Assembly: GCA_958496175.1 (NCBI GenBank) | Contig: OY292276.1 | Coordinates: forward strand, 53,209,080-53,273,079 | Reading direction: 5' to 3' | Origin: Sisyra terminalis | Taxonomy: Eukaryota > Arthropoda > Insecta > Neuroptera > Sisyridae | Length of the DNA: 64,000 nt | In this document: one piece after another, positions 264 through 62,501 of the stretch | Position numbering within the stretch: position 1 is the stretch's first letter | Layout: each line of letters starts with the position of its first letter | Notes under the pieces: generated by a model | Seen by the model: only the letters and a program-made list of their open reading frames with translations | What the model was told of the DNA's origin: nothing | The model's database searches: none | Position numbers and translations under genes: made by a program

Positions 264-469
264 TTGTATACAATATATAGGATATATTGTGGTCCAATTT
301 ATGTAGTATAATTTAATATAATAATATATAAAAATCATACCATAAACATAAATTTGAACAGAAGTTCAAATAAAAATATTCGTGACGTATTGCCCAGATA
401 CGTATTTTGATTGCCAAGCAATCTTCCTCAGTGGTCATCAAGTAGTTTGGATTACTCCGTAACTGCTTT
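264..469 (-). mobile_element. Short hammerhead-bearing retroelement inside the satellite
   Basis: A 206-bp insertion interrupts the satellite. It is flanked by a 12-bp direct repeat with one mismatch (GTGATCATTCTT at 252-263, GTGATGATTCTT at 470-481), the size expected of a target-primed retroelement duplication. Its sequence matches the left arm and centre of the palindromic element at 62095-62501 but lacks the inverted right arm. It contains a minus-strand hammerhead motif (383-439). It has no ORF, so it must be non-autonomous. A Penelope-like origin is inferred from the ribozyme class; other retroelement machinery is possible. Confidence 0.75.
383..439 (-). ncRNA. Hammerhead ribozyme motif, catalytic-core mutant (G12A)
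   Basis: On the minus strand CTGAGGA (431-425) is followed by a perfect 6-bp stem II (GATTGC, loop TTG, GCAATC). Then comes AAAA where the core requires GAAA, and the palindrome ATACGTAT ending in the C at 397. Stem I is conserved: CCA/TGG, an internal loop, then GATG/CGTC. The sister copy at 62263-62318 has the correct GAAA, so this copy carries a G-to-A change at the catalytic G12 position and is predicted inactive. Confidence 0.75.
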
Positions 470-622
470 GTGATGATTCTTATTCGTTTTCGTATTCAAG
501 GTTTTATTACCTGATTTTAACCCTCGAAAGATGTGCGAATTGCATTTTCACACTCTGTTGGAATGTGGCCGGTCTTATGCTCTTTGGAACTCAAGGTTTT
601 ATTACCTGGTTTTAACCCTCTG

Positions 623-1944
623 AGAATTAAAATGCATTTAAAAGAAAGATATTTTCTGCAGTTATTCAGTGTAATATTTAAAATAATGTAATATTAATCG
701 ATTCATATATTATATTACATTATACTTTTCTATATACGAATGAAATTGAAATGACAGTTGAATCTAATGACATTATAGTTCAAATTAGAACTAATAATTA
801 TTATATTTTTATTCCACTAATATGGATGTATTTAAAAATTTGCATTCTTTGTCCCTTGAATTTGCCGCAACACATACGTTTCCTATAAAACGTACCCAAA
901 TAGATTTTGACAAAAATATTACTACCACTGAGTCGAAGAAACAAATGAAATTTTCTTTTGTATGAAAAATTTTACTGCTGGTTTATTAATTGTTGATAAA
1001 ATTGATAAAATGTACAGAGAAAAAAGGTTTTTTTTGGTTGTTGTGAAATCCACCCCTACATTGAAATAATTCTTCACCTTTTTATTTTGGGAGGTTTTCC
1101 CAAATTTCAGTAATTTTAAGTTCCTGATTATTAATAAAACGACTTCGAGATAGATAAACCAAGTTTTTAAAAGTTTCCATACTTTTTCAATAAGATATAG
1201 GTCTAAAGTCATCTTGCTAAGAGAAGATTGGGATATTTTAAGAAAATAATTCATTTTTTATGGTACAGGATAATGGCAGGGTGCATCTACGGTTATAAAA
1301 TTCCAAGAATCAATTGTTATAGAATGTTGGGTTTTGCTCATTGTTAGACCAACAAAATATATTTACATAAAAACGTAGGTGGGCGTACCGTTTTTTTATC
1401 AAGATTGTAACTATATAACACAAAAGCCACTGTTTCTTATAATAAAGGAAAAATCGTTCAATCTTGTAATAATATTTGAAAAATATATTTTAATATTGAT
1501 ACAATCGAAGTGTTACCTTTTGACATAGTAATCAATATTTTGTTTGAAAATATTTTTATTCTGAGTTATAAAATGTGTCAATATAATCAAACAATTTTTT
1601 TTACATTTACTTTAGCTCAATATGGTGATTACGTTGTACCTTAAATATTGCATAACAGTAAATGAATCTTTTTTTGGATATTAAAAACTTTATATTTTTA
1701 TTTCATCTTCGTACAATATTTTGCTACTTTCGTAGCTTCATTAGATGAAGTAGCTTTAGTATCCAACCAATAAGATTCAATTTCAGTTATATTACATAAA
1801 TCCATGGATGAGAACATAAATAATGCTTAAATATTGCTTTGTGACTATCAAAGAATGAATTTGAAGCTACTCAAAAGTAATTAGCATCATTATCATCATA
1901 TTTATATCATCATATTTTTATTGGCATAAGAACTTCTTAAGTAA
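623..1944. other. A+T-rich spacer, no supported gene
   Basis: No coding frame with recognisable domains or codon character is seen on either strand. A 110-codon minus-strand frame at 922-1254 is lysine- and phenylalanine-rich with poly-A/T-driven composition and resembles nothing. A patch at 740-800 (AATGAAATTGAAATGACAGT onward) weakly resembles 16920-17000, suggesting an old dispersed repeat. Confidence 0.6.
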
Positions 1945-3170
1945 TCTTTACTAATATATAAAATTCTTACGTCTGTCTGTACATTTTGATTTTGAACCCA
2001 ATTTTAGGGTAAATATTTGTTTCAAGAGGCCCTTATTCCAAATTTAACATTTTTAAAATTTTTGTTTGTCTGTCTGTCTGTGTGTCCCGATTTAACTAAA
2101 GAATGGAACAACCGAATTTAATGAAATTTGGTATTAAGATACAACACAATTTCCCAAAGACTATAGGCTATTTATCATTCCAAAAAAATAATAAGGGAAG
2201 GTATTCCCTAGGGATGAAACAAAAACATTTTTTACTTTAGACAGGCGAGTTATATATCATTGGAAAGGTAGTTAAAAATTAGAAAATAATCTGTACAAAT
2301 ATTTTTAATTGAACTGATAAAAAGCACAGTAAATTCAATTTAAAGTCTTAAAATTGCCTCTTTGAAATATAAACGTTTATATATTATTTAAGCTTAGTTT
2401 ATAAGTGAGCATTAAGTTTTTTGGCTTTCACATATTGTAAACCTGAAAATCCGAAATACGTATTCACAAATAAATACATTAGTGAGTGAATATCGAATAG
2501 CGAGAAATTCGGCGAGCTGAAAGAAAATGGTTTAATTATATAGTTAAAATTCAGATATTTTAATAATAAGTGCATAGATATACAATGGTTATACTTGATT
2601 ATGGTGGAGCTGGGTTTCGTGCAATTGAATAAATTTTAATTTCGCGGTAGTTTTGTACATTGCAGTAGTGAAATAGTTTTGAGAAAAAGGTTCATTCGGA
2701 AGTCGAGACAATGAAATGGGATTTCTACTAATATTCTAAATTTAGACTCTTTACTCCTGTTATTTTGACGCGAGTGTTTTGATAACTTCTTACTGTTTTA
2801 AGTCATAATTAAGACCGACTTTATTGAACATTACGATATTTTTTTTATGTATAGATCCTGATTGATTTATGAATTATTTGGTTAATGGTAGGTATACCTA
2901 CTGTAGGTATACGCAATTGAATATACTCTTTTTAGATATTTATAAATATTTTTTGTAAATTAATTGATCATTACATACAAATATTTTATTCTAAACAAGT
3001 TTATTAAATGTTTTTTTAAAGCTGACAAAATAGTGTTTTTAAGTATGATTATATTTTTCCTAAAAGAAATAACAAAAATAAAAATTTTCATATACCACTA
3101 CAAATAGCAAATCTAAAAAAAATATTATCTACACCTACGTTACGCAGACGAAGGCGCGGGGATCAGCTAG
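1945..3170 (+). mobile_element. Helitron-like non-autonomous element, copy A
   Basis: The element starts with TC after an A and ends with CTAG before a T, the arrangement of Helitron ends inserted at an AT site. The 5' end reads TC then TAATATATAAAATTCTTACG, followed by a CTGT-rich tract (2065-2085). The 3' end contains GACGAAGG and GGGGATCAGCTAGT. It shares its 3' end with copies B and D and its 5' end with copy D (55340-56571). No Rep/helicase frame is present. The Helitron call is inferred from ends and copy structure only. Confidence 0.65.
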
Positions 3171-3918
3171 TTAATTATAGATTTATAACGCTAAATGTAT
3201 AAGTACTATATATTACAGAGGGCATTATTTTACACTATCTCATATACTCGCTAATAACTTGAGAAGTTGAAGCGACTTTAAATAGTTCAAATATAAAAAA
3301 AAAAGATCCATTAGGTTTACGTCTGAGGAATTTGACAAGCATTATTTTACCAAAATAAAATTCAGAGTCGTACTTTTTAATCATCCTTGGTTAACCAGCG
3401 CTTTATGAAACGTTACCGAGACCTGGTTAAATGTTTGTGATCTGTTGTTGAAATGCTTATCAGCCCACGGTTTCAGGGTGGGTTCCAGAATCATTCCCAA
3501 TAATGTAATGCTAACTTTGACCTTATGGTAAAGGAAAACGATTGGAAAATGTCCTGCAGCGGTTACAGCTGCCCACATCACTACCTAAGGTAAATGTCAC
3601 TTTCTGATGGCCAAAGGTTGGTTTAAATTGTGCGTTTAGTCTCAAGTAGTAGATATGATAGTTTTGCGACTTTATAAATTGCTCTGTTGGGAAATTTTTC
3701 TCGTCAAAAAATATAAAGCTTGGAAATAAACTAAATAAGCTTTCAAAATAAACGTGTCACATATTGGTTAGCAGGTGGTTACACCTCCAGTGAATATTCT
3801 TGTAGTAACAAAAATCTTATAAATTTTAGAGAAAATACGAAAATATGAATAGTATATATTTTTGTTAATTTTCTTCTGTAATGCAGTTTGAAAGACATAT
3901 AATTGATATTATTTAAGA
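3171..3918. other. Spacer between two Helitron-like elements
   Basis: The sequence is mostly A+T-rich. A more GC-balanced patch at 3380-3600 contains a 66-codon minus-strand frame with no recognisable motif. No terminal repeats, RNA gene or splice-bounded coding segment can be supported. Confidence 0.5.
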
Positions 3919-5323
3919 CTAGCTGATCCCCGCGACTTCGTATGCGTAACGTATTTTATTTTCCTTATTCTTTTACGAAAAATATAATCATACTACATCA
4001 TTCATCAAATAAATAAAAAATATCGCCAAGTTCAATAAATTCGGTCTTAATAATGACTAAAAAAGTCGAAAGCTATCAAAATACTCGCATCAAAATAACC
4101 CCATCTCCCTTTTTCGATTCCCGAATGAACCTTTTTCCAAAAACTATTACACTATTGCATTGTACAACATAATCGCGAAATTGAAATTTGTACAATTGCA
4201 CGAAACCCAGTTCTTCCATAATCATGTATAACCATTATGTATCTTTACACTTATTATTGAAATATCTGAATTTCAACTATATAATTAAACCATATTGGAT
4301 AGTCCAGAGTTCGCCATACACGATTTGGCGTATGCCTTTTGCTCTGGAAGAGGATTTTAAATTTCTTTTATCATTATGATGATATGATTATTTATTATTT
4401 ATCATTATGATGATTTCTGGCTGGAATTGCGAACTTTTTTCGTGATCCCTTTCACGTACTTGCAAATAAAATATATTGTCCCCCCCCAAGAAAAAAATCC
4501 TGAATCCACCCTTGTCCGTTAGGGTAAGAATTTTCAAAAAAAAATCTTATCACATGCCTACTTCCTATAAGGAATACACCGAATATTAAAATTTCATCAG
4601 TCAGAAAAGTATATAAATACACCATTTTATATATGCACGGTTTTAAAAACGTTTTTAATTTAAGCTTTATTACTATTATTATTATTATTATTATTAGTAT
4701 TACTATTACATTTTTTGCGTTAATATTTCTTTACTGAGCAACCCTAATGATCTATTTACAATAACTTTGTAAAAAAAAAAGTTTACTGTCAGATTATTAT
4801 CTATAAAAACATTTATATTTCAAATAGGCAATTTTTTGCACTTTAAATTAAATTACTGTGCTTTTTAATAGTTCAACTAAAAATATTAATACAGATCATT
4901 TTTTAACTTTTAAATAAATTTTCAATGATATATAACTCGCCTATCTAAAGTAAATTTTTTTTTCATCCCTTAGTTTTTACGTAGGGGGTACATTCCTTTA
5001 TTATTTTTAAGGAATGATAAATAGCCTAACGTGTGTGGGTAATTGTGTTGTATCTTAGTATAAAGTTTCATTAAATTCGGTTGTTCCGTTCTTTAGTTAA
5101 ATCACCAGCGCATGCGATGTAAGAAAGTTTTTTGGTAGTTTTTTCACACATTATTGGAGTTTTAGTATGGATCCTTAATTTTTTTGAAAATTTAATATAG
5201 CCTATGTTTACCGAAAATAGTGTAGCTTCCTACCAGTGAAAGAATTTTTCAAATCGGTCAAGTAGTTTCGGAGCCTATTCAAAGCAAACAAACAATCAAA
5301 TCTTTCCTCTTTATAATAATAGA
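3919..5323 (-). mobile_element. Helitron-like non-autonomous element, copy B
   Basis: This copy lies inverted relative to copy A. Read on the minus strand it begins A|TCTATTATTATAAAGAGGAA and ends GGGGATCAGCTAG|T. Its 3' half matches copies A and D, but its 5' end is the other type, shared with copy C (26394-27349). It contains a TAT/ATT microsatellite at 4670-4710 and a C9/A7 tract near 4480. No transposase is present. Confidence 0.65.
4670..4712. repeat. ATT/TAT trinucleotide microsatellite
   Basis: A run of about ten TAT/ATT units lies inside Helitron-like copy B. The corresponding place in copy D (55925-55965) has a shorter, interrupted version, so the tract belongs to the element family and has changed length. 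Confidence 0.85.
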
Positions 5324-7148: not shown

Positions 7149-7385
7149 TAAGTACAAGTGCTGTAAATATTTCATTATAGGAATAGTATTTATAGTGGTG
7201 ATGGATATACTTATTCATAGTAACTGTATATTGTATACTAGCTGAACCTCGCCTTATGGCAAATTTTGAAGTTATAAGGAAATTCTCGCAATTTATACTT
7301 TCAGCAATACGAATTTATTGATTCATTAGTAACCCTCGAATTGTTCATACCTTACTACAATATATTTAACTCTAATAAAAATAAT

Positions 7386-7426
<41 letters not shown>

Positions 7427-8193
7427 TCTTTAAGTCTAATAGATTTTGGAATCTAATCGCAAACAATTTCTAAGTACGAGTATTATAGTAATATGTATTC
7501 TACTTTTTCTGCCATTGGCATGGATAAGGCTACCATTGGTCAATGCCAATTGTAAGGAAAGTCTCGAAATTTATACTTTCTGCAATACGAATTTATTAAT
7601 TCATTAGTAGCCTCGAATTGTTCATACCTTACGTTATCTTTAATTCATAGTTAAGTTCTTATAGATCTTGGAATATATAATGGTAAATAAGTATTATAAC
7701 ATGCATTTTACTTTACCAATTGGCATGGATAACTCCATGCCAATGGCAACCTTATCCATGCCAAATGGCAGAAAAAGTACAATACATATTACTATAATAA
7801 TCGTACTTAGAAATTGTAGTCTTATCCATATAATGGCAAATAAGTATTATAATATGCATTTTACTTTACCAATTGGCATGGAGTTATCCATATGCCAATT
7901 GGTAAAGTAAAATACATATTATAATATTTATATGCCATTATATTCCAAGATCTTTAAGAACTTAATTATAAATTAAAGATATTATCGTAAGATATGAACA
8001 ATTCGAGGGTTACTAATAAATTAATAAATTCGTATTACAGAAAGTATAAATTTCGAGAATTTCCTAATAATTTCAAAATTTCCCTTAAAGCCAGGTTCAA
8101 CTAGTATACAATATACAGTTACTATGAATAAGTATGTCCATCAACTCTACAAATACTTTTCCTATAATGAAATATTTACACTAATTATACTTA
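7149..8193. mobile_element. Foldback (long inverted-repeat) element, ~1.05 kb
   Basis: The left arm runs from TAAGTACAAGTGCTGTAAAT through CTAGCTGAACC, CTCGCAATTTATACTTTC and CCTCGAATTGTTCATACC. It returns in reverse complement from 7990 to 8193. The ~400-bp centre is itself built of direct and inverted copies of CAATTGGCATGGATA and GTATTATAATATGCATTTTA-type blocks (7670-7920). A run of about ten AAT units sits at 7385-7425. Small frames in it are repeats of the palindrome, not genes. No transposase and no clear target duplication are visible. Confidence 0.8.
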
Positions 8194-8204
8194 ATACACA
8201 TTGC

Positions 8205-8997: not shown

Positions 8998-9005
8998 TTC
9001 TATAG

Positions 9006-9284
9006 CAACGGTCGGGGAACCAGGGTAAATTACCCCAAGTAGGGTAAAAATGATTTTTTTTCGGGTAATAAATAGTCCCAATTTTGAAGTAATTATATAA
9101 AATATGAAGCAACATCATTTTTTCCAAACCTATACTACAAATATGTAAATGTAAATTGATTCAATAAATAATGATTATTTAAAATTTACATTGATTGCTT
9201 TCTTTTCAGAATGGGAGGGGGGATTAATATCGACTAACACAAAAATATTTTGGGGTAATGGTTAAAAAAGTTCCCCGACCGTTG
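9006..9284. mobile_element. hAT-type MITE, 279 bp
   Basis: Perfect 15-bp terminal inverted repeats CAACGGTCGGGGAAC enclose 279 bp. They are flanked by an 8-bp duplication with one mismatch (TTCTATAG at 8998-9005, TTCTATAA at 9285-9292). An 8-bp duplication and a CA..CGG-type terminus are hallmarks of hAT elements. Subterminal GGGTAA/TTACCCC motifs recur. No coding capacity is present. Confidence 0.85.
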
Positions 9285-9292
9285 TTCTATAA

Positions 9293-10849: not shown

Positions 10850-10857
10850 ATTCGAAA

Positions 10858-16347: not shown

Positions 16348-16611
16348 AGATGATAAAATTCAGATCTCAGCTTTTATTCAATAAGAAGACTATTCAGATT
16401 GTTTAAGATCGGTTTTTTTTATTTAATATTTTTTAATATTCAAATTAGCTACGTTTCGTTACGTATTGTTACTTCATCAAGCTTCTTGAAACACAAAAAA
16501 TATAATATTTTCAATTTAAATTCAATGAAATTGAAAATATATACGTAGCTAATTTGAATATTATATAATATTTAATAAAATAAAAACCGATCTTAAACAA
16601 CCTGAATTGTC
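16348..16611 (-). mobile_element. Hammerhead-type short retroelement (type II), 264 bp
   Basis: It is flanked by a perfect 14-bp duplication TTCCTTTTAGTAAC (16334-16347 and 16612-16625). It begins AGATGATAAAATTCAGATCT and ends CTTAAACAACCTGAATTGTC. The two halves are inverted around 16520-16528: GTTTAAGATCGGTTTTT in the left half returns as ACCGATCTTAAAC in the right. The same element with a longer centre occurs at 57970-58609. There is no ORF. The duplication length supports retrotransposition and the ribozyme motif suggests Penelope-like machinery. Confidence 0.8.
16441..16490 (-). ncRNA. Degenerate hammerhead ribozyme motif (type II)
   Basis: Minus-strand TTGATGA (16480-16474) replaces the required CTGATGA. 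The 5' arm of stem II has changed to GTAACA, so it no longer pairs with CGTAAC, although GAAACGTA is intact. The sisters at 58514-58565 and 58061-58112 show the ancestral form. This copy is predicted inactive and reads as a relic. Confidence 0.65.
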
Positions 16612-16625
16612 TTCCTTTTAGTAAC

Positions 16626-20551: not shown

Positions 20552-20575
20552 AAAACAGTACAAGGTGCAAAACAA

Positions 20576-20625
20576 ATATTACCTGATGATGACAGCCAAA
20601 GATTGTTGAAACGCGTTGTATTAAT
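20576..20625 (+). ncRNA. Hammerhead ribozyme motif (type I)
   Basis: CTGATGA at 20583-20589 is followed by stem II GACAG/TTGTT (20591-20595 with 20103-offset partner 20603-20607, including G.U pairs) and GAAA at 20608-20611. Then CGCG, T and the cleavage-site base T at 20117-offset position 20617. All core bases are present. Stem I pairs ATTAC with GTATT across one T.T mismatch and is weaker than in the 58-kb copies. The ACGCGT stem III palindrome can close only between two molecules. Self-cleavage is plausible but less certain than for the 58-kb pair. Confidence 0.65.
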
Positions 20626-21779: not shown

Positions 21780-22576
21780 TTTGTAAGCAAAGTAGAAGAT
21801 TATTATGAAATATATTTTTTTTATCTTTTATAATTGAATAATTTTAAAAGTGATACTAGTCCATTTACAATCCATTAATATGCATTATTTTAGTTAAATT
21901 CATCTAAAAAATTGTTATATTAACAATTAACGTATTGACATATCAGTAGAAACATTGGCAGATTTGGTATAATTAATTAATTTTTTTCATTAATTCATCA
22001 ACAGATATGCTAATCTTTAATTTTCTTGAAACACGAAAACATGGACTTACACCATTTTCAAATTAAATGACCCGGATGTTGGTAAACTTTATTGGCACAA
22101 ATTTCAATTTCAAGAGCCAAAGCATCATATTATAATAATTCAAGTACTCAAATACTGAAAAATGATTACGAGACCATCCTTAATTAATATATGTTGTCAC
22201 AATTTTATTTTTATGAATTTTAGGATATTCAAAAAAAAAATAAGATAGTGGTTATACACAATAGGGATAACATTGGTAATTTTAAACTGCGAAAAAGTAA
22301 TTTATTGCTTATTCTCCCCTTAAACAACTAACTTTAGACACGCACAACATTAAAACAACCCTTATTCTTGTTTTATTTCTCTTCAGTTTCACCTAAAAGA
22401 CTTTTATTTCCTTGTATTAAGGAAAAAAATAATAAAAACATAAATAATGAAATGAATTTTCATAAAGCTAATAGTAACTGACAAAAAAGAACCAATTTTA
22501 TTATTAAAGCATGCGACCTGATATCATTTTCCTTCAATTATAATTACAAAAATTGACAAAAAAAAAAAAAAATAAC
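21780..22576. other. Spacer, nothing recognised
   Basis: A+T-rich DNA between the mariner and the tandem duplication. There is an A15 run near 22559-22573. No gene or repeat terminus is supported. Confidence 0.5.
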
Positions 22577-23595
22577 AAGGTACTCAAATAGCTGATGAAT
22601 TGAAGCATTCGTATTTCAATAGACTTCACAAAAGTCTATCAAAGAAAACTAAAAAAAAAAAAATGCTCGAAAATTATACTAATAGTAAATCAATACTTTT
22701 GAAAAGTTTTCCGAACCTAAAACATATGTAGGCGATTGATTTTCATAGAAAATTTTCTAATTTTATATGCAAAAATTGTACGGATCACCAAAAAGAAAAT
22801 CTTTAACTGATTTATTTATATTATCTTATTTCTTTTAGGCTTCTTTACCTCCTATAGTTCTCTCACAATACGTTATCGATTATATAATTCAAAAAACGAG
22901 GAAAATTTGATTTACAAAAATTAAAAAATTCCAATTATTAACGGAAAACAGTATTGCTATTGATATTTTTCTGATGTCCTTTGAAAGGTCAAAATACTTA
23001 TCCAAATCTAATAACATTGGTGCATAGGAAAGATGCTATTTGTTATCCTGTGGGTTTCCTTAAAACCTCCTTACAAGGTACTCAAATAGCTGATGAATTG
23101 AAGCATTCGTATTTCAATTGGCTTCACAAAAGTCTATATTCGAGAAATTATCAAAGAAAATTCAAAAAAATTACGTAAAAAGTAAATCAATACTCTTGAA
23201 AAGTGTTCCGAACTAAAATCATTTGTAGGCGATTGATTTTCTCAGAAAATTTTTCAAATTTCATTTGCGAAAATTGTACGGATCACCAAAAAAAAATATA
23301 AATCTTTAACCAATTTATCTACATCTTATTTATTTTTGAATGCTGAAACCATAATCGGTGTCGGGCCTTATCAATCTCCTATAGTTCTCTCACATTACAT
23401 TATCGATTATATAATTCAAGAAACGAGGATTATTTCATTTACAAAAATTAAAAAATTCCAATTATTAACGGAAAACAGTATTCCTATTGATATTTTTCTG
23501 ATGTCCTTTGAAAAGTCAAAATATAAGTCCAAATCTAATAACATTGGTGCATTGGAAAGATGCTATTAGTTATCCTGTGGGTTTCCTTAAAACTT
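22577..23595. repeat. Tandem duplication of a ~500-bp unit
   Basis: Copy 1 starts at 22577 and copy 2 at about 23075. Both begin ACAAGGTACTCAAATAGCTG and end with GTTATCCTGTGGGTTTCCTT. Divergence is modest and includes small indels: copy 1 lacks part of a TATTCGAGAAATT block and differs around a TTCTTTTAGGC / GAATGCTGAAACC segment. Frames of 65-77 codons in the copies are not conserved between them, so the unit is probably non-coding. The origin (unequal exchange or a tandem element) is undetermined. Confidence 0.88.
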
Positions 23596-33626: not shown

Positions 33627-34041
33627 GAACCTGATTTTTCCATAAAATTCGCGTTTTTTTTTGCATTTATCTCGTAAATAACAAGAGCTACGGAAAAATT
33701 ATAAATGAAAAACTTGTAGAGAATTTGATTTCCTACAAAAAAGGTCCTAAAGACCAAATCGCTAAGATCAATATTAAACGAGATATTAAGCCTTGAATTG
33801 AGTTTTCTAAAAGAAGATTTTAATAAGTTTAAATCAATGATCCTCAAAAATTTCACAGAAAAATCAATTCAAGGCTTAATATCTCGTTTAATATTGATTT
33901 TAGCGATTTGGTCTACAAGACCATTTTTGTAGGAAATCAAATTCTCTACAAGTTTTTCATTTATAATTTTTCCGTAGATCTTGTTTTTTACGAGATAAAT
34001 GCAAAAAAAACGCGAATTTTATGGAAAAATCAGGTTCAGTC
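33627..34041. mobile_element. Inverted repeat with ~200-bp arms
   Basis: GAACCTGATTTTTCCATAAA, TTGCATTTATCTCGTAAA, ACTTGTAGAGAATTTGATTT and CAATATTAAACGAGATATTA in the left half return in reverse complement on the right. The right half starts at CAAGGCTTAATATCTCG and ends near GGAAAAATCAGGTTC. The spacer is short (about 33800-33865). It is probably the core of a foldback or MITE; outer termini and a target duplication were not found. An 85-codon minus frame here is a product of the palindrome. Confidence 0.8.
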
Positions 34042-34416: not shown

Positions 34417-35571
34417 CATGAAGTGTTTGATACACCTTGAAATTTTGTAAGGATAGTATTTATAGGATGAGAAAGTAGGAATACCTGTGTTTGCATAACC
34501 CAACCCGGGACACCAGGTACTGCGCATGGGTGAAAGGTGTAATAAAATATAAGCCAAAAAAAATGTTTGATTCACAGATCAACAAACATTAATCGAAAGT
34601 TTAGGTAATTTTAAATCAGAATCCAAGATGGCAGGCACTTTTGAAGGGTTTTATATATAATTAATCCCCCTCAAAGTTGATTTTTTTTAATACAAAATGA
34701 AGTGTTTGATTCACTCTGAAATTTGAACAGCTTATTAATTAAATATTTAAGATTTTAATTACAAAAAGTCAGACAGTTTTGTTGGGGTTTAACTATCGGC
34801 AGACGTATTTTTTTTTATTTAAAATAGAAAGAGATAGGCTACGTATGGTTGGCGGAGTGAGCGAGAGGGCCGATCACCGCTGTAGCTGACTTTGTATTGC
34901 TTTTTCAAACTTGTAAAATTCGAATAGCATAACCGGTGATAATTTTCATTAGAAGACACTTCTAATAGTAAAATCACATCACAGTACTTTAAATTATATT
35001 TTTGACGGATTTCTAATGTGATTCGACATTACATTATATTATAGATTATCACCGGTTATGCTATTCGAATTTTACAAGTTTGAAAAAGCAATACAAAGTC
35101 AGCTACAGCGGTGATCGGCCCTCGCGCTCACTCCGCCAACCATACGCAGCCTATCTCTTTCTATTTTAAATAAAAATTTTTACGGTTGCCGATAGTTAAA
35201 CCCCAACAAAACTGTCTGGCTTTTTGTAATTAAAATCTTAAATATTTAATTAATAAGCTGTTCAAATTTCAGAGTGAATCAAACACTTCATTTTGTATTA
35301 AAAAAAAATCAACTTTGGGGGGCATTAATTATATGTAAACCCCTTCAAAAGTGTCTGCCATCTTGGATTCTGATTTAAAATTACCTAAACTTTCGATTAA
35401 CGTTTGTTGGCCTGTGAATCAAACACTTTTTTTGGCTTATATTTTATTACACCTTTCACCCATGCGCAGTACCTGGTGTCCCGGGTTGGGTTATGCAAAC
35501 ACAGGTATTCCTACTTCTCATCCTATAAATACTATCCTTACAAAATTTCAAGGTGCATCAAACACTTCATG
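34417..35571. mobile_element. Large foldback element, ~550-bp arms
   Basis: The arms are nearly identical in reverse complement, from CATGAAGTGTTTGATACACC at the left edge to GGTGCATCAAACACTTCATG at the right. They are separated by about 60-80 bp around 34975-35030. Each arm carries three copies of a GTGTTTGATTCAC-like motif (near 34422, 34565 and 34702 on the left). It also has a GC-rich block with GGCGGAGTGAGCG and GCCGATCACCGCTGTAGCTG. The high arm identity points to recent insertion or ongoing gene conversion. No transposase and no convincing target duplication. Confidence 0.88.
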
Positions 35572-41161: not shown

Positions 41162-42409
41162 CTCTGTCAAGTTAGCACCCAACTTTTACAAATTAAAATT
41201 TTAAATATATTTTTAGGTAGCCTTTTGTTTGTACTTGATTGTACCGAAAAAATCTTCGTTTGTACCTCAACCGAAAAAAAGTTATTAAATTTTTAAAAAT
41301 CGATAGCTCTCCATTGTAAGATTTTTCAAAAAATTTAACGGACATAGATAAGCCTTGACACGTAGAGGATTGTACTGAAAAAAAATTGCTTCTAACTTTA
41401 ATCCAAAAAAAAAAAATATGAGCGATTTTGTGAATGTACTTATTCCATTGAAAATAGAGTTTTCCGGCTACTACGGATTTTCCTTGAAAGATTTTCCAAA
41501 TCCAAAGGCGGTACAATCTAGCTACGGAAGCGCTGAGGATTGTACCGAAAAAATTATCCTACTAACTTTATTCCAACGGTAGTTATAAAGACTTTTGTAT
41601 GGGTAATTAGACTCTCATTACTTTTTTGTTTAAACTGCAATAAAGTAATTTTAGTCTAATTACTCATACAAAATAGTTTATAACAACCGTTGGAATAAAG
41701 TTAGAAGGATATTTTTTTCGGTACAATCCTCAGCGCCTCCGTAGCTAGATTGTACCGCCTTTGGATTTGGAAAATCTCTCAAGGAAAACCCGTAATAGCC
41801 GGAAAACTCTATTTTCTTTCCGGTTGAGGTACAAACAAAAATTCAACTGATACCATAAACTAGAGACCAGCACCCGAAAGAATCCGCAAAAAAATTCGTT
41901 TGTACTTCAATAGATTCAAAGTTATGGCGGTTTTTGCAATTTCAACAATGAAGTAATTAGAATCTAATTACTCATACAAAATCCTTTATAACTACCGTTG
42001 GAAAAGAGTTAGAAGGATATTTTTTTCGGTACAATCCTCAGCGCCTCCGTAGCTAGATTGTACAGCCTTTGGATTTGGAAAATCTCTCAAGGAAAATCCG
42101 TAGTAGCCGGAAAACTCTATTTTCAATGGAATAAGTGAATTCACAAAATCGCTCATAATTTTTTTTGGGTTCAAGTTAGAAGCAAATTGTTTTGGGTACA
42201 ATCCTCTACATGTCAAGGCCTATCTATGGCTGTTAATTTTTTTGAAAAATCTATCAATGGGGGGCTATCGATTTTTAAAAATTTAATAAATTTTTTTCGG
42301 ATGAGGTACAAACGAATTTTTTTTCGGTACAATCAAGTACAAACGAAAGGCAATGAAAAAATATATTTAAAATTTTAATTTCTAAATGTCGGGTGCTAAC
42401 TTGACAGAG
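41162..42409. mobile_element. Foldback element with internal repeats, 1248 bp
   Basis: Terminal inverted repeats CTCTGTCAAGTTAGCACCC open long arms that share ATTGTACCGAAAAAA, GTTTGTACCTCAACCG and ATCGATAGCTCTCCATTG-like blocks. The middle is a further palindrome (AACGGTAGTTATAAAGACTT versus its inverse at 41670-41700). The block AGGATATTTTTTTCGGTACA with CGCCTCCGTAGCTAGATTGT is duplicated at about 41705 and 42013. Several 60-107-codon frames are repeated or antisense versions of one another and are not genes. No target duplication was found. Confidence 0.87.
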
Positions 42410-46259: not shown

Positions 46260-47011
46260 TTAAAATGTTCAATTTATATCCAACTAATAGGTGTCCGATT
46301 ATTTATTTTAAACAGCCTACTTCTGAATGCTGTTTTTTTATTAATAATTAATCGTCTGAACAACAATTAGATGAACTTGATTATAAAGTTTCTATCAAAT
46401 CGGTAAGATTGTCTTTAAATTGGAACCATTACAAAAATCAGAATAAAATATTTACATTAGATTTGTTCGTGACCTTCCTTATACTTTTTTTTTGGCGATA
46501 CAATAAGAAGTACCTGAAAACAAAATATTATCGATATCGATTAAGCTGTTTTTGAATTGTACGATAGAATTCAGGTAGACAAATATTTATGTTCAATTTT
46601 ATCAACCTTTGCCCCATAATGATCATTATTGTAAGCAAATCCGGATAAACCAAACAGGTGTTAAAATTGCAAAGAATTTCTACCTGCTCTCAAGTGGTAA
46701 CATATAATATAGTAAAAGCTTGAAGGTCAAACTGTGAGAAAAATGTGAGCTCAAAGGTGAGATTTATGGATTCGGAATCAGGTGTTAATGTGATTGTAAT
46801 TGACAACAAATAATAAATACCTCAAACTGGTTTCAAATTCCTTAAACGATATATTTAAAGCTACCATTCTCTTGTACTACACATTTTGGCCTTCAAGCTT
46901 TTACTATGTTACTTCATATCACCAGTTGAGCATATACTTGAACTTTTCGTATATATACTATTTAATAATATTTTTAATTATTGTAAAGTTTCAGATCATC
47001 AATGATGATAA
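46260..47011. other. Spacer, nothing recognised
   Basis: A+T-rich; an 82-codon plus frame (46800-47048) runs into the following foldback and is low complexity. Confidence 0.5.
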
Positions 47012-47394
47012 ATTGGTAAAAAATACTCAGAGGACTAGGATCAAATAATAATCAGTTAAAACTATTTATTACATGCGCGACATTTCGGCCCGGTTATTGA
47101 GCCTTCCTCAGGCGTTCGTAAATAATCGCTTTAACTTTGTTAAAAACAATCATTGTCCATTCATTTTTATACGGTACAGTTGGTAAAAACAATCATACAA
47201 CTCCCAAGATACACAACATTTTTTCAGTAAAATATATAAAATAAAATTTCAACAAAAACAATTAAAAATTAGTTAAAGAATGACGTTAATTTAAAAAAAA
47301 AAAAACTGACGTTTCGGGCTGAAACGTCGCGCATGTAATAAATAGTTTTAACTGATTATTATTTGATTCTAGTCCTCTGAGTATTTTTACCAAT
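47012..47394 (-). mobile_element. Foldback element carrying a hammerhead motif, 383 bp
   Basis: Inverted arms of about 80 bp (ATACTCAGAGGACTAG, AATAATAATCAGTTAAAACT, ATTTATTACATGCGCGAC) enclose a unique ~220-bp centre. The left arm continues into a complete minus-strand hammerhead. The right arm contains only its 3' half (GAAACGTCGCGCATG). This is the same design as 16348-16611, 57970-58609 and 62095-62501. No ORF; no target duplication could be assigned because the flanks are part of the palindrome. Confidence 0.75.
47071..47125 (-). ncRNA. Hammerhead ribozyme, intact core (type III)
   Basis: Minus strand: CTGAGGA (47111-47105), stem II GGCTC/GGGCC (47103-47099 with 47091-47087) with a 7-nt loop, GAAA (47086-47083), then TGT and cleavage-site C at 47079. 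Stem I pairs CGC/GCG, has a 2x2 internal loop (AA/CA), and continues TTACG/TGTAA. An internal loop here is where natural hammerheads make their activating tertiary contact. Stem III is AUGU, too short to close within one molecule. All invariant core bases are present. Confidence 0.8.
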
Positions 47395-49640: not shown

Positions 49641-50128
49641 GTAAGTGGTTCTTTCAATTCTCAAAGAAAAACGTGAAAACAAAACTCTTAAGTAGATTTG
49701 TTTGTATTTTTGTCAACTTTTGTCACAAAGTGATCATTATTCATTTTCTCTATCCTATACAGAGGCCACGAAAGACTGATGTACACTTATTTAAGGTAAA
49801 CCTTATAAAGAGTTATAATCACGCTATTTTGAAGCTAGATGCCAACAAAAAAAAGCTTAATTTTGCAAAGTTTAAACTCCTTGTTTTGAAGGGTTCAATT
49901 ATTGGAGAGAAAATATAAGGAATATTTTTCTAGCACTTTTTAAAATAGTCACTAGAAAAAAAATCATGTTTTCTTGTAATAATATGGAAAATAGGATATA
50001 ACAAGAAGGGAAAGTTTAAAATTGGCATTTAAACCAAGAACTCATTTTTGGGAAGGATTTGTTTTAATTGCCCAGAAAAAAATTAATGAATAATTATTTG
50101 TGTCGAATGACCAAATTTTCTTTTTCCT
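49641..50128 (+). other. Start of the ankyrin-gene intron
   Basis: Intronic by position after the GTAAGT donor. Apart from the micro-exon candidate, it holds an 81-codon frame that is not bounded by good splice sites. Nothing else is recognised. Confidence 0.45.
49763..49795 (+). other. Possible 33-nt micro-exon after the ankyrin exon
   Basis: CTCTATCCTATACAG precedes AGGCCACGAAAGACTGATGT, and the segment ends CTTATTTAAG before GTAAAC. It would add RPRKTDVHLFK in frame with exon 1 (phase 0 on both sides). Ankyrin arrays usually continue directly with a YGR.P.H-type helix, which this is not. It is more likely chance or a rare alternative exon. Confidence 0.15.
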
Positions 50129-50170
50129 CAATGCGTTTCAACAGTAGTTAGCTGTCATCGTCAGGTGGTA
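50129..50170 (-). ncRNA. Partial hammerhead ribozyme motif (type I)
   Basis: Minus strand CTGACGA (50164-50158), stem II GACAG/CTGTT with a 7-nt loop, and GAAA (50139-50136). Then CGCAT, with U at 50130, instead of the CGCGTC of its relatives. Stem I pairs four of six positions. Core bases are intact because position 7 tolerates any base. Stem III has lost its palindrome, so activity is doubtful. It lies in the ankyrin intron, antisense to the gene. Confidence 0.55.
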
Positions 50171-50521
50171 TTTTTATTTTTTCAATTGTAAACAAATTTT
50201 ATACAAAATATTTGGTTTAAATAACTTGATCTGATTGGATCAGATCATTGGAGATATTGATGAGATTTTGGTGGAAGTCAAATTTGACCAGAGTTAGGCA
50301 AATGTTTTTGGCAGAGTGCAATGGTGTTTGCTAAAAAAAATGCAAGTCGTCTTTCCATAATGGGGAATATTTTGCTCAATATTAACAAAATTATCAACAA
50401 CAATGCCATGTAACGACCAAAAAACCAAAAAACGACCTAAAACATTGGGGAAGTTTGGCAAATTGGTTTGATCAATTATTAAGATTTTGTTTGATAAAAT
50501 TGAGAAAGATTTTAATCGGAT

Positions 50522-56571: not shown

Positions 56572-57957
56572 TATACCTATTTATGTCTGATTCAAATTCT
56601 ATAATTAAAACCATAGTATAAACTATGATTATATTCTTTGGGTGAGGTTAAAAAGAGTAAAAAAAAAAACAGATATTTCTCAAAAACATAAATATATTTT
56701 TCTTGAGAGTTTAATACGGTAAAGTTGTCACATTTTTACGACATAAAAACGTCAAATTGTCCCTTAAAAGTAAAACACTTTATTGACACGATCATCATCT
56801 TTATATCGCTTGAAAAACACATTTTTTTTTCCTTTTCCTCTTTTCCTCTTTTCGTCTTTTTATTTTTACTTATGTGACATTGCGTTTATCATTAAAATTT
56901 CCGAGCGAATAATTTCCTATGAAATGTACATAAACACACAAGAAACAAGATTAAATCAAAATTTAAATTTGATTTTTAACCCGGAAACATTTCACCAATG
57001 ACATTAAATTATTTTTAACTACAAACCAAGGACTGACATGCTAGCACGAGTGGAGGCATTTAATACGAGAACTTCAAAAGCTTTTTTTGGTCGTAAAATA
57101 TCAAATCGAAATTGTTATTTCTAAAAAAAATATTTATTCAACTTTTAATTTTTCAAATAATTTTCCCTTACTGTTTTATTTTTAGATGCACATTTCAAAG
57201 TGAATATTTCGCGTCGTATATAAAAGCAAGATATAAATCTTGATTTCAAGTGCTTTGAAGTACACAGACCTAAATCCGTCTTTTCTTGCAAATAAAAGCC
57301 ATTTATTTGGAGGTACATTAGTGATTAAATAAATGAAAAAGCTTGAGTTTGCCGTCACAAACAAAGCAAAGTGAGATATTTCAGAGCTTTAGTGCTTTTC
57401 GTATTTGTTAATTTCAATTTACATCGAAAAGTAAATATGATTCATCAAATTAACTCGTTAATATAAAAGTAATTGTAATGAACGTAATTGCTTGAAATTT
57501 TCTTTACATGTTTTTTTTTTTTGGGAAAGATTACAAGTTTTGCTCGACATTATTTTTTTTTTTTTGTTTTAATTAAAAGTTATCTTTCATCTCGGGTAAA
57601 AGCTGGCAAAACTTTATGAAAAAGCATCTGGAGAGAAAAGTTGGAACAATTAATACTGAAATATACTTTAATTAATTGCAAGAACGAAAAAGTTATAAAC
57701 ATCTTCTTCTAATGTTAAGAAATGTTTAGAAGATGCTTGGAAATAAAATTAATTGGTCGGCTTTTTAGGTTTGTGTTTTATGTCTCGTAGTGTTTTACAA
57801 ACTTTATCTTAGTGCTAGTCTCATAAAACATTTAGAAAAAAAGTTTATTGACTTTTTTTTTGTTCCCTTCATATGGACAACTTTGTATTGGATTTGAAAT
57901 TTTTTAGTTCTTAAATAATTTAAACTAACCAAAGCATCTAAACATGATTATACTATT
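56572..57957. other. Spacer, nothing recognised
   Basis: A+T-rich; small frames at 56783-57001 and 57182-57364 have no recognisable features. Confidence 0.5.
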
Positions 57958-58060
57958 GCTATTTATAACAGATGATAAAATTCAGATCTCAGCTTGTATT
58001 AAATAAGAAGATAATTCAAGTTGTTTAAGATCGGTTTTTTTATTTAATATTTTTTTAATA

Positions 58061-58112
58061 TTCAAATTAGCCACGTTTCGTTACGTATCGTAACTTCATC
58101 AGGCTTCTTGAA
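58061..58112 (-). ncRNA. Hammerhead ribozyme motif (type II), cleavage-site variant
   Basis: Minus strand CTGATGA (58102-58096), perfect 6-bp stem II GTTACG/CGTAAC with loop ATA, GAAA (58079-58076), then CGT and G at the cleavage position (58072). Relatives have A there, and G at this site blocks hammerhead cleavage. Stem I has TTCAA/TTGAA and AGC/GCT helices around an internal loop. Well folded, but predicted uncleavable. Confidence 0.72.
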
Positions 58113-58235
58113 TCATAAAAAAAAATATAATATTTTCAATTTAAATTCAATAAATAAAAAAAAAGTATTTAAATAATTTTTTTATTTATTTATTGATGGA
58201 TAATAATATATGTCTTATGAGACTCAATTTCTTCC

Positions 58236-58284
58236 TTATTACGACGCGTTTCAACAATTTTTAACTGTTATCATCAGGTAATAA
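58236..58284 (-). ncRNA. Hammerhead ribozyme, intact core (type I)
   Basis: Minus strand CTGATGA (58277-58271), stem II AACAG/TTGTT with a 7-nt loop, GAAA (58252-58249), CGCG, T and cleavage-site C (58243). Stem I is 7 bp (TTATTAC with GTAATAA). ACGCGT is a perfect palindrome, so stem III would form between two RNA copies. All invariant bases are present. Confidence 0.82.
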
Positions 58285-58353
58285 TTATTTAGTGAATTAA
58301 TAATTAATAATTTAATAAATCAAAAACTATTAATTATTATTATAATTAAATTA

Positions 58354-58402
58354 TTATTACCTGATGATGACAGTCAAAAACTGTTGAAACGCGTCGTAAT
58401 GA
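58354..58402 (+). ncRNA. Hammerhead ribozyme, intact core (type I)
   Basis: CTGATGA (58361-58367), stem II GACAG/CTGTT (58369-58373 with 58381-58385), GAAA (58386-58389), CGCG, T and cleavage-site C (58395). Stem I is 7 bp, TTATTAC with GTAATGA. It faces the minus-strand copy at 58236-58284 with about 70 bp between them, so transcripts of either strand contain one forward ribozyme and one antisense copy. All invariant core bases are present. Confidence 0.85.
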
Positions 58403-58513
58403 AGAAGAAAGTCTCATAAGACATATTTTACTATCCATTATTTTATTGTGAATCGGAAATAAATAAAATACTTATTTATTGAATTTAAATTGAAAATATT
58501 ATATTTTTTGTGT

Positions 58514-58565
58514 TTTAAGAAGCCTGATGAAGTTATAATACGTAACGAAACGTAGCTAATTTGAA
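58514..58565 (+). ncRNA. Hammerhead ribozyme, intact core (type II)
   Basis: CTGATGA (58524-58530), stem II GTTAT/GTAAC (one G.U), GAAA (58547-58550), CGT and cleavage-site A (58554). Stem I pairs AGC/GCT, then has an internal loop, then TTTAA/TTGAA with one G.U. ACGT is the palindromic stem III. Cleavage after A is allowed. This is the best copy of the type II family here. Confidence 0.78.
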
Positions 58566-58621
58566 TATTAAAAAATATTAAATAAAAAAACCGATCTTAA
58601 ACAACCTGAGCTATTTATAAC

Positions 58622-59075
58622 TTAAGAAAATGAAAATTTTACTTAAACACCAATAAAACACTGCAGTAGGTTTTTACACTTATACTGCCTTTTTTGCTAA
58701 TCGTGGATCTAGATCTTAAGATTAAAATGGAGGATAATTAGAATCTAATCATGGAAAAAAATAAATCAAAAATTACAATAATAATTTCGTATTTTCTGTT
58801 GTCTATAAGAGTGCAGGACCTGAACTAACGTTTCGTTGTATAGTAAAATTCATTTGACAAAATTTACTACTTTAAACATCAAATAGTCCTTTTCATTTTC
58901 ATAAGTTTTAGGATGTTAAAATAACAGAAATAACATTAATCAGACTAGACTAGTTGCAAAAGAAGAGTTTCTCCTATTCGACAATTATTTTTTTTTATAC
59001 TGAAATCTACAAAATACTCATAATATGAGCGAAGTAATGAGACCAAATAATTATTTGAATCAATTTTATATTCTT
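58622..59075. other. Spacer, nothing recognised
   Basis: A+T-rich with no supported feature. Confidence 0.5.
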
Positions 59076-59240
59076 GACTTGCAGCTCAACTAGTGGTCCG
59101 ACTTTAGAAGTTGGTTTTAAAGTCGGATCGTGAATGATGTTGTTGGAAGCTGGATGTCTAGTCTAGTCGGACTGGTTGAATTATTTAGAGGGACAACTAG
59201 AAGATCCAACTAGTAATCCGACTAGTTGAACTGCAAGTCG
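59076..59240. repeat. Short inverted/direct repeat cluster (GACTAGTTGAACTGCA)
   Basis: CTTGCAGCTCAACTAGTGGT near 59079 returns as ACTAGTTGAACTGCAAG near 59220. Between them AAGTCGGATCGTGAATGATG and AAGTCGGACCATGAATGG are direct repeats. It is probably the core of a small MITE; clear ends were not resolved. Confidence 0.6.
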
Positions 59241-59330
59241 GACCATGAATGGCGTGCTTTCATCACTAAATTTTATAATGATTAATATAGTGATTATTTT
59301 TTTAATGTATGTAATTATCCATATTATTAC

Positions 59331-59920
59331 AGACCCATGAGGCCTGGACCTAGGTCTGCACCATTTAAAGGGCGGCAAAATTTTCGTAATACCAAAATAT
59401 TAATGACGTAGAAAAGTACGGACCGTACGGACAATTCAAATACAAAAATTGGCTAAAGTTAGTTTTATTATGAATGTATGGAACATCTTCATAAAAGTAT
59501 ATTTATCTAATAAACTTTTCTATTTACCACATCCATTTTTCAATAATTAAATCACTGGCAATAAGAAGGCTGCCGTTTTGAGGACATTCAAAACAAATTG
59601 AGGATACCCTTAATGATATTCTTTAGAAACCGTTAAATGTCCCTACTAAATTCGTTTCATTATTGTCCGAACATTTAAAGTTCTTTAGTGGAATTCCTCT
59701 AGAAGCCAAAATAAATCAAACTTATTAACTTCCCAAAATGATAAGTAAATATTACATTAATTGTTTTAAGTTTTCTAAAAATTAATAAAAATAAACACAT
59801 GATCCAAGTATTCGAAAATTAGATGTTTTATCTGAATAACCATCTGATTTTGGAGTAGTAAGGGCGGCATATTGAATAAGGTCTAGGGCCACATCGGACC
59901 CAAATCCGTTACTGGGACAG
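59331..59920. mobile_element. Diverged hAT-like relic, copy 2
   Basis: It begins CAGACCCATGAGGCCTGG with GGGCGGCAAAATTTTCGTAA after it, and ends GGGCGGCATATTGAATAAGG then CCGTTACTG, so GGGCGGCA lies near both ends. The right block matches 31240-32060. No 8-bp duplication is convincing. A 65-codon minus frame at the left end is a chance translation. Confidence 0.5.
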
Positions 59921-61086
59921 AACTTCCTTAAAAACTGTTTTCCAATCGAAAATCCATTAAACGAAACCGCTATTACTATGAAATCTTATTAGAAAGTGAT
60001 AGATGCGTTCAAGCTAGTAAAAATACCTACAAAAGAACCCAATTTTACTAAATTCACACTAAATATTGAGCGTAAATAAATTAACATTACATTTTACCGC
60101 ATAACATCAAATATTAATTCGTAACAACGATTGATAACTATTTTGGGTTTGTCCGTATGACAAAACCCACATATAGTGTATTTATGTACTAAAAATCTTT
60201 TTTATTATTTCCTTTTTGGGGTTCCTCACATAAAATGTAAGCAAAATTAACAGAATATACATATATTTTTTGTAATTGTGAATATTTTATCCGTATACTG
60301 CAATTTTGATACTTTTGATACTTAATTAACTATGTCCATAATATCGAATTTCTGCTTAATGAGCGTCTGTAAAGCGGGGGATTACTGTAAATGTATATGC
60401 ACTTGCACTTATAGAAAATTTTGTAATCTAACTTCGTACCCTTTGTTGTAGTACTTATTACCTACAGAAAACTTTTCTTATAGTTGCGATTTTATAATGT
60501 AAAAATTCAATTGTAAATAGGAAATTTAAGATAAAATATTGTAAGGAATAGGAAAATTAAAGTCTGGTCCTAGATTACGCTGTTCCTATCGTAATATTTA
60601 TTTTTATCCGAATATGCCAAATGTCAAATATATTTAATCGGATGCCATTATAATGGTAATATGGTAAATATATGGTAAATGGTCAATATTAATGGTTTTT
60701 CATTTTACTTTAATAAAATAGTTTCACTATCAAAAATATAAATTAATTTTGAAAAGGAGACTTTGTAATACGGAAACTAATTTCCTGAAGTCTTCTGATA
60801 TTCAAATAATATTATCAAACTTAATTCGATTATATATTCCAATATTAAAACTATACCCTCTAATAAATGGAATCTTTTTTTGCTTCTCCTGGAAACTTTA
60901 AGAACATGGACTCAATTTCTTTTGAAAATTGCCGTCTTAATCTATATTGATTAGCTGATTCTCTATATGAAGAATCTTCTTTAATTTTCAATTTGGCCTC
61001 TCAGTGTTTTATGGTTTGTCTTTCGTTTTGTAACATTTTCCCTTAATGAGGTCATAGTGGATTTGTGTAGTGACGTAAATTTAATA
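59921..61086. other. Spacer, nothing recognised
   Basis: A+T-rich; 60880-61086 may include eroded sequence downstream of the LINE RNase H region but cannot be read as protein. Confidence 0.45.
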
Positions 61087-61640
61087 TTATTGGTGATCCA
61101 AACTGTAATTTCCCTTGATTTTACTGAGGTTTATAAATTTTTGGGTCCATTCGATTATTTGATTTAGTATTGTACACATCGGTGCATCTATAGCCAGTTC
61201 TGGACCCATAAATATGGCATTCTTCAATGTTTTTGTAAGTTCGTCTACCTCTTCCTTATCATTGATACCAGGATATCCTAACATCTAAGCAATTGTTACT
61301 TTTTTGGATGTTTCCAAATAGATGAAAAATATTTTAAATTCCCAGATCAGTTTTTAGAGTTCGTCTAGTGAGATTCGATTGTTTTAATTGTAGTTTGGCT
61401 ATCTGAGAAGAATCCCATCCTTTTATTATGATATTTTCTTCTCATGTTTTCGTATATAAATATGATAATGACATAGACTTCTGCTTTGTATATATTGTGG
61501 TAATTTTCCCTAGGCTAACAATTATTCATTTCCTGGGATTTTCTCTCCATAATCTAATTTTCTAATGCATAAGTGAACAATGTTAAATCACCAGGATTTA
61601 CTTCAATTTTCTCATGCTAATCATCTCTTTGACTTATTTT
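61087..61640 (-). pseudogene. LINE RNase H domain relic, copy 2
   Basis: The minus strand reads, with frame changes, SLGK then YHNIYKAEVYVIIIFIYENM and FFSDSQTTIKTIESH, followed by ETSKKVTIAxMLGYPGIND and KEEVDELTKTLKNAIFMGPE. This is the order of the RNase H domain of non-LTR retrotransposons (AEVYA, SDSQAA, VPGHxGIxGNExADELA, FIGPEP). The TDGS segment expected near 61590 is unrecognisable, stops occur, and the GHSG histidine is Tyr here. The domain occurs in I, R1 and LOA-like clades; which one is not decided. The open stretch at 61087-61284 is the best preserved part. Confidence 0.85.
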
Positions 61641-62094
61641 GGTCTCAAAAGAGATATCAAAATGGAATTTGATTTTCTTGTAGTCTTATATGATCCAGAA
61701 ATTTGGATGGTCAACTACATGGTAGTTAAAATCCAGTTTTTAAATACGTCCAGTATTGTCCAGGAACTACACAGCTTTTACTTTCGTTGAGGTGGAAGTC
61801 AAACTTGCTAATCGTATTCATAGTATTTTTAAATTTGCAGTGAAAAATTATCCATATTTCAAAATTCTTATTTCTTTAAATAGGAAGATTTTAAGTATAA
61901 GTGAAAATGCTCAAACGTTAATTAAACCAAAATTTCAATTTTTTCAGATTTCTATCCTTTTACGTAAATTTAAACTCAACTATTTCTAACCATGTGAAAT
62001 TAGGGATAAAAAAAATTTAAAGGAAACTAAATCCATTACATCTTTGCTTTTTATAATACTTTACCATGTTTTATCTAAATATTTATGGTTTTAC
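61641..62094 (-). other. Probable further decayed LINE sequence and spacer
   Basis: 61640-61800 aligns with 31000-31190, so the same LINE continues upstream, but no domain can be read. A 77-codon plus-strand frame (61756-61989) crosses it and has no recognisable motif. 61990-62094 shows nothing. Confidence 0.5.
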
Positions 62095-62501
62095 TATACT
62101 GTGTATACAATATATAAAATATATTGCAGTCCAATTTATGTAGTATAATTTAACATAATAATATACAAATTTAATATAATAATATATAAACTTAAAATAA
62201 TAATATATAAAAATCATACCACCAACATAAATTTGAACAGAAGTTCAAACAAAAATATTCGTGACGTACTGCCCAGATACGTATTTCGATTGCCAAGCAA
62301 TCTTCATCAGTGGTCGTCAAGTAGTTTGGATCACTCCGTAACTGCTATGTGAATCATCACAAAATTTATGTTGGTGGTATGATTTTTATATATTATTATA
62401 TTAAATTTGTTTATTATTATATTAAATTTGTATATTATTATGTTAAATTATACTACATAAATTGGACTGCAATATATTTTATATATTGTATACACAGTAT
62501 A
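62095..62501 (-). mobile_element. Palindromic hammerhead-bearing element, 407 bp
   Basis: Arms TATACTGTGTATACAATATA (62095) to ACCACCAACATAAATTT (62234) return inverted at 62365-62501. Both contain degenerate TTAATATAATAATATATAAA repeats. The ~130-bp centre holds an intact minus-strand hammerhead. The copy at 264-469 has only one arm plus the centre, with a 12-bp duplication, so the palindrome here looks like an inverted dimer of that unit. A 67-codon plus frame across it is an artefact. Confidence 0.82.
62263..62318 (-). ncRNA. Hammerhead ribozyme, intact core (type IV)
   Basis: Minus strand CTGATGA (62310-62304), perfect 6-bp stem II GATTGC/GCAATC with loop TTG, and GAAA (62287-62284). Then TACGTAT and cleavage-site C (62276). 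Stem I is CCA/TGG, an asymmetric internal loop (A versus GCAGTA), then GACG/CGTC. ATACGTAT is an 8-nt palindrome, giving the longest dimer stem III of the set. Every invariant position is satisfied; this is the best candidate for activity in the window. Confidence 0.88.

Follow-up and report, generated by a model that had tools for sequence, protein, structure and literature searches.

The stretch analysed here (the window) is a 64,000-nt segment of the genome of the neuropteran insect Sisyra terminalis (assembly GCA_958496175.1, contig OY292276.1, positions 53,209,080 to 53,273,079 of the forward strand), which contains ten hammerhead ribozyme motifs in eight insertions. Judging from sequence comparisons, these motifs are very probably the minimal hammerheads with a short stem III that are carried by Penelope-like elements (PLEs), and the complete window copies are pairs of PLE pseudo-long terminal repeats (pLTRs) that lack the reverse transcriptase (RT) gene and arose by a proposed insertion mechanism involving two templates. 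This interpretation draws on the hammerhead sequences themselves, on resident PLEs with the same pLTRs, and on a tail of approximately 30-38 nt that is present at exactly one end in 63 of 66 measured insertions and at both ends in three.

The preliminary description of the window had listed ten hammerhead motifs of four families; all ten were located in their places in the window sequence, and the assignment to four families (A, B, C, and D) was right. Two of the eight insertions, the A element at 58 kb and the B element within it, hold two motifs each, which brings the number of motifs to ten. Our strict descriptor consisted, in its 5' part, of CTGANGA, 0-1 nt, a stem II of at least 4 bp, and GAAA, and, in its 3' part, of a short stem III closed by A-U, H17, and a stem I of at least 3 bp. 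It is satisfied by six of the ten motifs (20583+, 47111-, 58277-, 58361+, 58524+, and 62310-), and the remaining four, read by eye, are decayed members of the same families. A dinucleotide-shuffle check of motif density, as had been suggested, gave no match in 299 of 300 shuffles and one match in the other, compared with six in the real window, which supports the reading of the motifs as hammerheads at the level of sequence. A scan of the window with Rfam 15 detected no hammerhead at gathering scores or at E values up to 10, and the window copies were all missed by the Rfam models; the genome search with the Rfam model RF00008 gave no match, and its controls likewise gave none. The hammerhead claim rests on the descriptor and on the location of the motifs in PLEs. 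The insertions are as follows, with query positions given as q, target-site duplications as TSD, and strands omitted for two-armed elements.

265..479, minus strand: family C single-arm remnant placed by DNA alignment (95% identical to the C arm over q3-172, 84% over q194-285), with a decayed hammerhead (core 431-, G12 lost)
16348..16624: family A head-to-head element; left arm with tail and decayed hammerhead (motif at 16441, C3 changed), right arm truncated, starting at q84, without hammerhead; TSD CTTTTAGTAAC
20568..20624, plus strand: family B fragment with a hammerhead satisfying the descriptor (core 20583+)
46980..47394: family D head-to-head element; hammerhead (core 47111-) in the complete arm 46980-47298 (-), none in the short second arm 47315-47394 (+)
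50077..50181, minus strand: family B single arm whose hammerhead is decayed (core 50164-, broken stem III)
57970..58630: family A head-to-head element at 58 kb; left arm 57970-58162 (-) with tail and core 58102- (G at position 17), right arm 58469-58630 (+) with core 58524+, which satisfies the descriptor
58192..58475: family B head-to-head element lying within the AT-rich centre of the preceding A element; cores 58277- and 58361+; only its right arm bears the tail
62095..62533: family C head-to-head element; hammerhead (core 62310-) in the left arm (-), right arm internally truncated yet with its tail at 62502-62533; TSD TGGTTTTACTATA

All of these insertions are RT-less, and the complete ones are head-to-head pLTR pairs. 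The location of the B element inside the A element at 58192-58475 raises the idea that AT-rich palindrome centres may be preferred targets.

The motif order in the families read is stem I, CUGANGA, one extra unpaired A or U, stem II, GAAA, stem III, H17, and stem I. The single unpaired nucleotide between CUGANGA and stem II occurs in all five families read, namely the four of the window and family E, which is found elsewhere in the genome. Stem II comprises 5-6 bp and pairs in each of the five families though its sequences differ, and stem III is tiny, closed by A-U, and self-pairing: ACGU in A and E, ACGCGU in B, AUACGUAU in C, and AUGU with a wobble in D. Unconstrained RNAfold predictions recovered stem II in all five families and, in A and D, also stem I and the internal loop it contains. 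Each complete arm carries one hammerhead, pointing outwards. In the predicted fold of the transcript of a solo element (L033), the two arms form a hairpin of -221.6 kcal/mol, and such a near-perfect hairpin would bury the hammerhead within the solo copy's own read-through transcript.

The hammerheads are very abundant in this genome, as the preliminary description had suspected from the density in the window. The genome-wide pattern search that it proposed was run for families A, B, and C over the 376.6-Mb genome, which has seven large contigs, using family-specific hammerhead patterns of 31-35 nt with up to three mismatches and, as controls, the reversed patterns. It revealed 4,902 sites for A (2,430 forward and 2,472 reverse), 1,661 for B (829 and 832), and 7,787 for C (3,886 and 3,901), while the reversed patterns of these three families matched nowhere in the genome. 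For family D, a DNA search of the genome gave 1,656 first-look candidates, 40 of which were scored. Moreover, nine further A-D elements were identified in 102.6 kb (102,600 bases) flanking other copies, or approximately one per 11 kb in what is a non-random sample of flanks, a density similar to that of the eight insertions in 64 kb of the window. Searches with the window elements revealed multiple palindromic copies of A, C, and D in the genome, and family B is palindromic in three loci (L005, L037, and L049) and in the window.

The same families were found in resident PLEs. A genome search with a PLE RT sequence, in which 150 of 908 candidates were scored, gave at least 151 matches, including 15 at the same 217.4 bits, most of them with long open frames; several matches are arranged as head-to-head pairs 2-3.6 kb apart. 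For instance, locus L069 is a 6.3-kb head-to-head palindrome of two units, each with an 839-codon frame. The frames of L069 and L065 hold RT and GIY-YIG-like motifs (read by eye), and both align with the L070 frame; the genome search with the Pfam GIY-YIG model matched a single locus. The L069 pLTR belongs to family C (90% identity over 341 nt to the C arm with tail) and is present as two identical direct copies of 378 bp plus inverted counterparts. The tail in L069 is located directly upstream of the ATG, and the TSD is 14 bp long (ATTAAATCAAAAAT). The complete C arm begins with VNHHKAVTE-stop, the last nine codons of the PLE open reading frame (ORF), which in L069 reads VNHHIEVTE-stop, and it continues with the hammerhead, the 5' leader, and an optional tail. 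The two L069 halves show no substitution over 3,154 aligned columns and differ by one 18-bp indel. One of the four L069 hammerheads, at position 4732 on the minus strand, carries an extra 18 bp of repeated ATACTGTA-like units within stem III; with these, its stem III loop would be longer and could close.

Family B is tied to a second lineage with RT and endonuclease (EN) domains, in which the hammerhead core starts 24 nt past the frame in L070 and 20 nt past it in L075. In the same lineage, L071 has a decayed hammerhead further from the frame, L072 has a matching arm without a core, and L076 and L077 are additional PLEs. A small D element near the B-lineage ORF of L072 was considered as a mark of the D parent and read as a chance neighbour. 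In L078, pieces of an RT C-terminus and of GIY-YIG from a decayed third lineage are flanked by family A arms (tblastn, against that single locus, E values of 1e-8 and 6e-7). A further lineage, represented by L065-L067, has its own hammerhead, family E. The E, C, and B proteins are 29-34% identical, thus the hammerhead structure has outlived the sequence. Taken together, these loci argue strongly for the identity of families C and B with resident PLEs, whereas for A they point to a decayed RT/EN remnant. Hallmarks of PLEs in this material include RT with GIY-YIG-like frames, direct and inverted pLTRs, a tail at one end, and TSDs of variable sequence.

The arms and ends of the elements were measured in the best-scoring fetched copies, not in a random sample of the thousands; window duplicates (L001, L031, and L032) were dropped wherever a family would be counted twice, and arm rows were merged per arm before tail scoring. 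One-tailed insertions account for 28 of 28 elements in C (14 with the tail on the left and 14 on the right), 20 of 22 in A, 4 of 4 in B, and 11 of 12 in D, where tails were counted by hand in rows with both arms aligned over at least 233 nt and short-arm rows were left out. The script alone counted 19 one-tailed insertions in A and 3 in B; L038 and L049 were moved by eye from the two-tailed to the one-tailed class because the duplicated target sequence abuts the arm end, the overrun being chance AT-rich matches. Under an independent 50:50 choice of the tail at each end, the odds of 28 out of 28 in C are 2 to the power -28. End repeats that match exactly over 10 bp or more flank 19 of the 28 C insertions and 11 of the 22 A insertions, the rest having shorter ones or none; one A case is doubtful, L007 was measured at a wrong boundary, and these are raw counts from an AT-rich genome. 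The end repeats found are mostly 10-14 bp and variable in sequence. The majority base agrees between tail-bearing and tail-less arms except in a C repeat that varies in length, and the inner ends of the arms differ between copies; therefore the palindrome is remade at each insertion. The inner arm end lies within 3 nt of the hammerhead cleavage site in none of 44 A arms and none of 56 C arms, and 35 of the A arms and 27 of the C arms start at arm positions 1-9, upstream of that site. Since no measured arm comes within 3 nt of the cleavage site, the inserted RNA of those copies was uncut at the hammerhead.

We propose that the PLE protein would cut both strands of the target, and that each target 3' end would prime reverse transcription of an uncleaved PLE RNA, beginning at one of two internal start sites, one with the tail and one without it. 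The two cDNAs would run inward and be joined in the middle, giving a palindrome, and the two start sites would be used once each per insertion.

Several observations weigh against this interpretation. Two-tailed insertions exist (two in A and one in D), and the A and D queries include the tail and may under-sample tail-less copies, in contrast to the C query, which has no tail. PAc, a PLE of Anolis, shows in vitro no start-site difference between strands in the available parts of the report (PMC11167929), whereas here each site is used once in nearly every measured insertion, so PAc alone does not predict the one-tail rule. In one A arm the start, at q84, is 5 nt away from the cleavage site. 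Beyond stem II, the RNAfold minimum resembles a hammerhead only in part in B and C and does not do so in E; no parent PLE was found in the genome for family D, which has the same anatomy as the other families. In family A, where the query favours complete tail arms, truncation is confined to tail-less arms, 8 of 19 of which start at q16 or beyond, while no tail arm starts beyond q13. In addition, derived variants are common to the two arms of an element somewhat more often than to permuted arms: 11 shared variants in 16 pairs over the whole A arm (reached by 0 of 2000 permutations), 6 in 23 pairs for the outer part of A (54 of 2000), 2 in 23 pairs for the outer part of C (72 of 2000), and 3 in 5 pairs for its inner part (92 of 2000). 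Thus, the two templates would not be fully independent, and the shared variants could originate from RNAs of the same source, from gene conversion, or from snap-back of a single cDNA.

The last of these options, as an explanation of the whole population, would require no second RNA: a single cDNA made from the tail would fold back and copy the second arm. It agrees with the derived variants common to the arms of one element, with the lack of substitutions between the halves of L069, and with the truncation of family A inside tail-less arms only, which it predicts; moreover, palindromes of pLTRs in Adineta vaga have been interpreted as signs of self-priming (PMC3846280, available in part). However, the truncated arm in C (inner end at q99 or beyond) is tail-less in 7 elements and tail-bearing in 14, and in these 14 of 28 C elements it is paired with a near-complete tail-less arm. 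If the cDNA had instead begun at the tail-less site before folding back, there would be no sequence from which a tail could be copied. We consider snap-back unlikely as the general route and prefer two-template insertion.

The constancy of the arms and the variability of their junctions bear on the possibility that the palindrome spreads as one long hairpin RNA copied end to end in a SINE-like manner (as short interspersed elements are). Such a hairpin would be very stable, given the folding energy predicted for L033, and would transmit one tail per copy automatically, but two diverged arm consensuses would then be expected, whereas the majority base is the same in both arms outside the length-variable C repeat, and the inner junctions vary among copies; this explanation is largely contradicted and seems very improbable. 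The arm ends, in turn, are informative with regard to retrozyme-type elements, in which tandem hammerhead repeats spread via self-cleaved circular RNA. The short stem III and the arm length of roughly 100-320 nt resemble metazoan retrozymes as far as these are covered by the available parts of the reports (PMC7229834, PMC7761336); however, the units described here are inverted head-to-head pairs and not direct tandems, none of the 100 measured arms starts within 3 nt of the cleavage site, and the arms belong to PLE pLTRs, which makes a retrozyme origin extremely improbable. Finally, miniature inverted-repeat transposable elements or foldback DNA transposons with a chance CTGANGA...GAAA motif are almost certainly the wrong explanation. 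Inverted repeats are indeed present and no PLE or other long frame was noted in the solo copies of the window, but the end repeats are 10-14 bp long and vary in sequence, unlike a fixed TA, the tail is asymmetric and internal truncation variable where symmetric termini with a fixed short TSD would be expected, the same pLTR occurs in resident PLEs, and the shuffle and reversed-pattern controls are near zero.

The role of the hammerhead in PLEs is called unknown in a review, in the part available to us (PMC7761336). The present data bear on this question in that the sampled inserted copies derive from RNA uncut at the hammerhead and nearly all are two-armed with exactly one tail. One speculation, which we put forward as having a small chance of being right, is that the palindromic stem III of PLE hammerheads mainly pairs two RNA templates, similar to a retroviral dimerisation site, rather than serving in cutting. 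If true, the loading of such a pair into a single PLE complex would account for insertions made of two uncleaved RNAs copied head to head, and template pairing would explain why the start sites with and without the tail are each used once in 63 of 66 insertions; the cleavage-competent geometry would be a by-product, or a switch destroying unpaired templates. A dimerising stem III is compatible with the uncleaved insertions, with the hammerhead predicted to be buried in the hairpin, and with the in vitro insertion of RNA by PAc without need for hammerhead cleavage, according to the accessible portion of that work (PMC11167929), none of which proves it.

The window holds several other repeats. 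Four more long inverted repeats (7149-8193, 33655-34010, 34473-35516, and 41162-42409) have arms that are 89-96% complementary; neither the descriptor nor the preliminary description places a hammerhead in them, and they may be other foldback elements. Direct repeats at 22575-23593 comprise two copies with a spacing of approximately 500-530 bp that are 81-92% alike. Outside the window, the starts of three small contigs (C8-C10; L061, L062, and L063) have a GC content of 0.36-0.38, the window having 28%, and L061 begins with a short repeated unit.

Minimal type I hammerheads were reportedly described in PLEs by Cervera and De la Pena in 2014 and by Lunse, Weinberg and Breaker in 2016. In the sources surveyed, as far as their available parts extend, PLE hammerheads, the short palindromic stem III, dimer cleavage, inverted pLTRs, and tails are already published. 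The S. terminalis motifs share with the published PLE hammerheads the core, the very short palindromic stem III, the pLTR location, and the thousands of dispersed copies (PMC6155905, PMC7761336, PMC6466107); however, dimer cleavage is said to need a tandem arrangement (PMC6466107), whereas the copies in the solo elements described here oppose each other on two strands. Metazoan non-LTR (non-long terminal repeat) retrozymes likewise combine a type I hammerhead and a weak helix III with short non-coding repeats, but they form direct tandem repeats and circular RNA, in contrast to the inverted pairs of S. terminalis with arms starting upstream of the cleavage site (PMC7229834, PMC7761336, same limits).

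The Penelope elements of A. vaga, in the portion of the report available, show the same inverted pLTR pairs, solo pLTRs, and head-to-head junctions, and have an optional 31-bp tail on one pLTR and TSDs of 8-10 bp (PMC3846280). They are present at low copy number, in contrast to the thousands of hammerhead sites found here, and relative to them the present genome adds four families with RT-less head-to-head pairs and a one-tail rule backed by counts. PAc, within the same restriction to the available text, cleaves and extends both target strands in vitro, and its tail is the sequence between two reverse-transcription start sites (PMC11167929); a hammerhead near the pLTR-ORF junction is common to PAc and the elements described here, for which the same tail between start sites and the same action on both strands are proposed. 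The one-tail insertions fit the PAc biochemistry and the single-tail inverted pLTRs of Adineta.

Neither the one-tail rule as a count nor such an RT-less head-to-head population was met in the available parts of the literature surveyed, outside which lie Cervera 2014, Lunse 2016, Craig 2021, and Arkhipova 2017. The genome offers 14,350 hammerhead sites in families A, B, and C together with resident PLEs that have long RT-EN frames. What it adds to the picture drawn from PAc and Adineta is that almost every insertion draws on each of the two starts once, and the one-sided tail of nearly every measured insertion is an unusually clear clue to how PLEs are copied.

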